Assembly (NCBI GenBank): GCA_919901555.1
Contig: CAKKPG010000045.1
Location: forward strand, 1 to 38,011
Origin: Nitrospiria bacterium
GTDB lineage: Bacteria; Nitrospirota; UBA9217
Direction: 5' to 3'
DNA: 38,011 bases
Part shown: positions 36,182 to 36,634 of the stretch, in pieces
Layout: the number at the start of each line of letters is the position of its first letter
How positions within the stretch are numbered: the stretch's first letter is position 1
Position numbers and translations under genes: made by a program
The notes under the pieces: generated by a model
What the model was told of the DNA's origin: nothing
Databases searched by the model: none
What the model saw: the letters and a program-made list of their open reading frames with translations, nothing else

Positions 36182-36634
36182 CTAGTGCTGAACGGGATAG
36201 CCCGCTTCCTTCCAGACCGTAAGCCCTCCGCTCATGTTCACCGCGTTCCTGTACCCCAGGTCGTTCATCGCTTTGGTCGCCAACGGCGACCGTTTGTCGA
36301 ACATTCAGTACACCACCACTTTGGCCGTCTTGTCCGGGATCAGCTCGTGGATGTGGAAGTCGAGGAGCCCCCGGGACATGTTGACCGCGCCGGGGATATG
36401 CTCCTGCTGGTACTCTTCCTTGTCCCGGACGTCGAGAATGATCGCCTTCTCCTTTCCGTCGACCATCCTCTTCACATCGTGGATCGAGACCTCGTGAATG
36501 ACCGCCTTCGCCTCGCTGACGAGTTGGTCCGGCGTTTTGACGGCCGCCTCTCTCTTCCCCGTATCTTTGACCGAACACCCGGAAAACAACAAAAACGAGA
36601 GAACAAACAGCAACCACCTGCCCTTGTTCATCAT
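36182..36634 (-). CDS. Rhodanese-domain lipoprotein with in-frame TGA (probable selenocysteine) at the catalytic position
   Basis: Reading through the TGA at 36305-36307 gives 150 residues. A lipoprotein signal (lipobox LFSGC, Cys20) is followed by one rhodanese domain. CDC25/rhodanese landmarks are IILDVRDKEEYQQEHIPGAVN (67-86, given here as known blocks ILDVRDKEEY and HIPGAVN), then KVVVY, the TGA as residue 110, and MFDKRSPLATKA. In normal members the residue after VVVY is the catalytic cysteine of a C-x4-R-S loop, and R115-S116 are present at the right distance. The C-terminus GYRNAVNMSGGLTVWKEAGY is intact and typical. A GGTCGCC-GTT-GGCGACC hairpin begins 13 bases after the TGA. AAAGGAGG precedes the ATG. 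The alternative is a Cys-to-stop mutation. Confidence 0.8.
36275..36291 (-). promoter_or_regulatory. SECIS-like hairpin after the TGA codon
   Basis: On the minus strand, seven perfect base pairs (GGTCGCC with GGCGACC) close a three-base GTT loop. The loop starts 21 bases after the TGA and its first base is G. Published rules for bacterial selenocysteine insertion elements ask for a stem-loop just downstream of UGA with a guanine among the first loop bases. This hairpin fits them. It lies wholly within coding codons. Confidence 0.65.

Follow-up and report, generated by a model that had tools for sequence, protein, structure and literature searches.

The Sud polysulfide-sulfur transferase of Wolinella succinogenes is a periplasmic protein with one catalytic cysteine. 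Rhodaneses in which selenocysteine (Sec, U) is predicted have been reported in earlier surveys (PMC1088965, PMC2398784 and PMC9312934), and five Sec-rhodanese forms have been listed, with the motifs UxxS, UxxG, CxU, UxxG and UxxxxU (PMC13188914). As a predicted kind, Sec rhodaneses are already known. The protein described here is encoded in a stretch of 38,011 nucleotides (the window), which is contig CAKKPG010000045.1 of a Nitrospiria bacterium. Like forms 1 to 5, it combines a rhodanese domain, a predicted Sec in the active-site region, a bacterial SECIS element and Cys homologs. However, proteins of the window clade read UxFD or UxFE followed by xRSPLA and are secreted single-domain proteins, set apart from forms 1 to 4 by the motif only. 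Judged by sequence, none of the five motifs on that list fits this UxF(D/E)xRSPLA loop, and on the strength of the motif the window clade may represent a sixth form.

Two NCBIfam models describe other rhodanese-type proteins, but with a different Sec pattern: rhodanese_LYCAU (NF041203), for which the window protein scores 44.6 bits against a cut-off of 115, and the (seleno)protein model seleno_TsoB (NF045694), with 39.6 against 805. Sud (1qxn) is a single-domain rhodanese like the window protein and is matched both by sequence (E 6e-9) and by fold, but has Cys instead of Sec and another loop sequence. The best PDB match is 6mxv from Francisella tularensis (E 3e-40, TM 0.91 on the query), of which the Cys is aligned to U110. 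It differs from the window protein by its tandem rhodanese domains and its Cys-containing loop of the CGGGFRS type. The following features were located:

36182..36634, minus strand: rhodanese gene read through a TGA, 150 aa, predicted Sec at residue 110, TAG stop (Pfam PF00581, 72.5 bits, residues 52-144)
36305..36307, minus strand: in-frame TGA, codon 110, predicted Sec, where rhodaneses have their catalytic Cys (shared by 10 further ortholog loci, with TGC/TGT in all others; the Cys of 6mxv aligns to it)
36275..36291, minus strand: candidate SECIS hairpin, 7-bp stem GGTCGCC/GGCGACC with a GTT apical loop 20 nt after the TGA (in agreement with the bSECIS constraints quoted in PMC13188914)
36640..36647, minus strand: Shine-Dalgarno sequence AAAGGAGG (direct sequence reading)
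36575..36634, minus strand: N-terminal signal sequence with a lipobox-like LLFSGC, probable lipid-anchor Cys at residue 20 (read by eye)

The open reading frame starts with the ATG at 36634 and runs down to 36182. A first-pass annotation of this DNA had given no strand; all of its elements were found, on the minus strand. It had placed an in-frame TGA after KVVVY, at the catalytic Cys position of a rhodanese, and this reading is borne out: the TGA (36307-36305) directly follows KVVVY as codon 110, is the only in-frame TGA of the 150-codon frame, and leaves the frame open up to the TAG (36184-36182). The 40 sense codons in between include the RSP of the loop and contain no further stop or frameshift. 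The read-through product is MMNKGRWLLFVLSFLLFSGCSVKD...IPDKTAKVVVY-U-MFDKRSPLATKAMNDLGYRNAVNMSGGLTVWKEAGYPVQH. The standard ORF call for this gene ends at 109 aa, which is the truncation that had been predicted for a gene caller. Over the full frame, the Rhodanese domain (PF00581) scores 72.5 bits, versus 42.1 bits for the part preceding the TGA (cut-off 22.2). The gene product is very probably a periplasmic single-domain rhodanese carrying Sec at its catalytic residue by means of the in-frame UGA.

The perfect 7-bp hairpin with a G-first loop, announced 13 nt downstream of the TGA, was found at 36291-36275. This structure, GGTCGCC-GTT-GGCGACC, consists of seven Watson-Crick pairs and a loop that begins with GU, sets in 13 nt past the TGA and has a folding energy of -15.9 kcal/mol. 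It satisfies the constraints on bacterial SECIS elements taken from PMC13188914. After synonymous recoding of the downstream amino acids, weighted by the codon usage of the window, seven or more Watson-Crick pairs under a correctly spaced loop led by G arose in 0.77% of 20,000 recodings, and an energy as low as that of the window hairpin in 0.4% of 4,000. A comparable hairpin follows 0.65% of the 9,379 codons in the larger ORFs of the window, and none of the 138 Cys codons. Because of these chance rates, both among recodings (0.77%) and among window codons (0.65%), the hairpin by itself is suggestive and no proof. An Rfam scan of the window at gathering thresholds returned no RNA family and no bacterial SECIS match, and a search of viral contigs with the SECIS-plus-TGA DNA pattern gave no match.

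Orthologs were collected by a phylum search and an alignment-based scan of genome contigs; a scan of the contigs with a single protein as query gave no match. A TGA at exactly codon 110 is present in 10 further loci (L080, L081 (=L172), L082 (=L174), L167-L171, L173 and L175), of which L080 comes from a Desulforhopalus MAG and the others from various families of Nitrospirota. This makes 11 TGA loci with the window, and the remaining orthologs have TGC or TGT at the same codon, including five from the window's own family (L025-L029, 46-64% identity), which have TGC. The TGA loci read VVYU, VVIU, VVVU or VTIU, followed by (I/M)F(D/E)xRSPLA. In all of them, a hairpin with an identical GTT loop occupies the same position; its stem is 7 bp long, with some G-U pairs, in 9 of the 11 (the window among them) and shorter in L080 and L081. 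The expectation of the first-pass annotation, that homologs would show Cys or an in-frame TGA at this position together with a conserved hairpin, is thus confirmed, the hairpin being conserved where the codon is TGA but not where it encodes Cys. Next to the Sec form outside Nitrospirota (L080), a resolvase and a tyrosine recombinase were noticed by eye, neighbors that hint at horizontal transfer or at a mis-binned contig.

The two kinds of orthologs differ in their synonymous codons, compared as the identity among codons that encode the same amino acid in two orthologs. Among the Sec orthologs, 267 of 302 such codons in the SECIS are identical (0.88), versus 371 of 909 further downstream (0.41), and the eight more diverse ones of these Sec sequences give 0.84 versus 0.37. 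In the Cys orthologs, the corresponding values are 0.30 in the SECIS codons and 0.40 downstream. Such a constraint, tied to the TGA, is what is expected if the RNA itself is read. Stem lengths also differ between TGA and Cys orthologs (p = 1e-5, although the sequences are not independent). The two kinds can be told apart by the position of the stem and by the synonymous constraint, but not by folding energy alone (p = 0.34). Compensatory base changes are absent from the stem, whose only exchanges are U-A/U-G and G-C/G-U; covariation is uninformative because the stem hardly varies. In the phylogenetic tree, the window protein and the Sec and Cys orthologs form one clade with a support of 99/99, within which the window protein is not placed exactly and Sec and Cys have been exchanged in at least three changes.

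The observed TGA could also have arisen from a TGC/TGT codon, by nonsense mutation or through an error in sequencing, as the five same-family orthologs have TGC and a single base turns Cys into a stop. The same TGA and hairpin, however, recur at the same place in ten other loci, and the downstream codons are under a SECIS constraint that is seen only in the TGA forms, by which this candidate is practically refuted. Decay of the frame after the TGA, for which relatives were checked as well, was not observed: the identity of the window protein to its orthologs is equal before and after the TGA (for example, 0.62/0.68 to L171 and 0.62/0.65 to L165). A second alternative concerns the decoding machinery. 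SelA and SelB were searched in the genome of the window organism (G000), a draft of 220 contigs that is 96.5% complete, and neither was found, an absence that the first-pass annotation had listed as a refutation. The two other components that it had named, selC (tRNA-Sec) and selD, are both present in this genome. The tRNA-Sec (G000:C7:7852-7946) scores 61.7 bits (cut-off 47), is called tRNA-SeC(tca) by ARAGORN, is 92% identical to that of the relative G002 and lies in conserved surroundings. SelD (G000:C10:23074-23988, 381.8 bits) has an in-frame TGA of its own (SHGAGUACK), as does the alpha subunit of formate dehydrogenase (G000:C111:12100-14103) in its classic CARYUH site. On C148, another large frame that resembles formate dehydrogenase contains one TGA, and two other TGA rhodaneses with hairpins are found on C33 and C38. 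Among the relatives, SelA was matched in 12 of 13 family members (only partially in G008) and SelB exceeded the cut-off in 9 of the 10 phylum members searched, the SelB-positive set being composed of eight of the nine TGA-form genomes (the exception is G317, 88% complete) and G285, with the Cys form.

The absence of both genes could reflect a recent loss of SelA and SelB, with Sec genes that are truncated but undecayed and a TGA that is a relic of Sec decoding. It was followed up by synteny with a concatenated query. The genes flanking selA-selB in relatives are present in G000 but adjoin other genes and not contig ends: the metallophosphoesterase on C126, RNase R on C53 and Kef/tRNA-Sec on C7 all occur without them, and no specific gap can be assigned to selA-selB because these flanking genes lie away from contig breaks. 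That both are missing from such a complete assembly, and that the region beside the tRNA-Sec is rearranged and contains three MFS-gene fragments, would fit with a loss. On the other hand, the tRNA-Sec, SelD, formate dehydrogenase and the three rhodaneses are all intact, with hairpins where examined. As selA and selB are one adjacent gene pair, a single gap removes both; in several relatives, the stretches that were read show no such pair beside the tRNA-Sec, and G012 has it twice. A further incomplete assembly with the TGA form (G317) lacks SelB as well. A displacement of selA-selB into an assembly gap is the likelier explanation, because six genes are intact through their TGA, and a recent loss appears highly improbable.

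Some further observations were made on these genomes. Near the tRNA-Sec (L061 on C7, 1549-5440), an MFS transporter gene is present as three fragments, which form imperfect direct repeats with other genes between them that, by eye, encode PIN-like and HTH proteins; in the relative G004, the intact MFS gene follows selB. G012 has two SelA copies (C71 and C42), one of them immediately preceded by a transposase-like gene, and G285 has three SelB-like genes above the cut-off. The rhodanese on C33 (L002, G000:C33:16246-16509) has its TGA at the catalytic Cys (TICYUASGVRSR), with one TGA in several relatives as well, and is fused at its C-terminus to a seemingly ferritin-like part containing EEHH/EEKDH motifs. 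The one on C38 (L004/L052, G000:C38:8788-9117) is a second exported rhodanese with a predicted Sec five residues past the loop Cys (CRGTGUTLS). Its relatives have U (L032, L035, L036, L039 and L041) or C (L037, L040 and L043) at that place, with hairpins in the U forms.

An AlphaFold model of the window protein (pLDDT 95.8) has the rhodanese fold, in which residue 110 opens the loop that connects a strand with a helix. The closest solved structures, the top Foldseek matches, are rhodanese-like proteins. The loop starts with UMFDKR, Sec replacing the catalytic Cys one for one and Arg standing at +5. A signal sequence is present in every full-length ortholog, by eye an ordinary signal peptide ending in AxA. 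The first-pass annotation had called the protein a lipoprotein, a claim made plausible by the lipobox-like LLFSGC, also read by eye, and weakened by the fact that this motif is peculiar to the window copy among the orthologs. To judge from the motif, the window protein is probably lipid-anchored. Besides Cys20, the mature protein has no Cys, so that an intramolecular Se-S bridge is impossible unless Cys20 is free.

For the proposed mechanism, tRNA-Sec and SelB, acting on the SECIS hairpin inside the coding sequence, would insert Sec at the UGA. The selenolate at residue 110 would then bind sulfane sulfur, forming a selenenyl-sulfide (Se-S) intermediate from which the sulfur would be passed to an outside acceptor. 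The protein would thereby carry sulfur on one residue in the periplasm, in close resemblance to the single-domain Sud, since the presumably lipidated Cys20 is the only other redox residue of the mature protein. We infer this transfer of sulfane sulfur through a selenol in the periplasm from homology and from the gene neighbors of relatives. In the families f21 and f26, the Sec rhodanese adjoins TauE/SafE, ArsR, DsrE (TusC-like), DsrH and an SQR-like flavoprotein, surroundings seen in L167, L169, L170, L171 and L173; these would suggest that it handles sulfide or polysulfide. The best NCBIfam match of the SQR-like protein of these loci is SQR_III_seleno, below the cut-off. In L081, L082 and L168, the rhodanese gene directly follows that of a VTT-domain membrane protein. 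The window copy stands alone, and two of its neighbor genes in the window have no Pfam match.

It is also conceivable that the protein contains Sec but is not a sulfurtransferase, the selenol serving as a reductant, a peroxidase or an oxyanion- or metal-binding site on a rhodanese fold. In its favor, the loop MFDK is without the glycine that rhodaneses commonly have there, redox roles are expected for most uncharacterized selenoproteins (PMC9312934), and an ArsM-like methyltransferase is a neighbor in one relative (L168). Yet the operons of the Sec orthologs in f21 and f26 are sulfur-linked (TauE, DsrE, DsrH and SQR-like), loop length and the position of R relative to U are as in rhodaneses, and a resolving Cys is absent. 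Such a role seems unlikely, although it deserves more weight than the alternatives discussed above. Only tentatively can the fuller reading be put forward, namely an uncatalogued exported Nitrospirota subfamily (UxF[DE]xRSPLA), associated with sulfide oxidation and Dsr/Tus-type carriers, in which sulfane sulfur would be held on the selenol.

In standard annotation, the Sec form of this enzyme is invisible, as gene callers would give a protein of 109 residues that lacks the active site. In this clade, one small exported enzyme occurs naturally in a Sec and a Cys version among related bacteria. If sulfane sulfur is indeed carried on a selenol, this would be a native enzyme chemistry not yet demonstrated. 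With the Sec/Cys pairs, and with the sulfur operon in some of the relatives, the question of why a sulfurtransferase would use selenium becomes testable.
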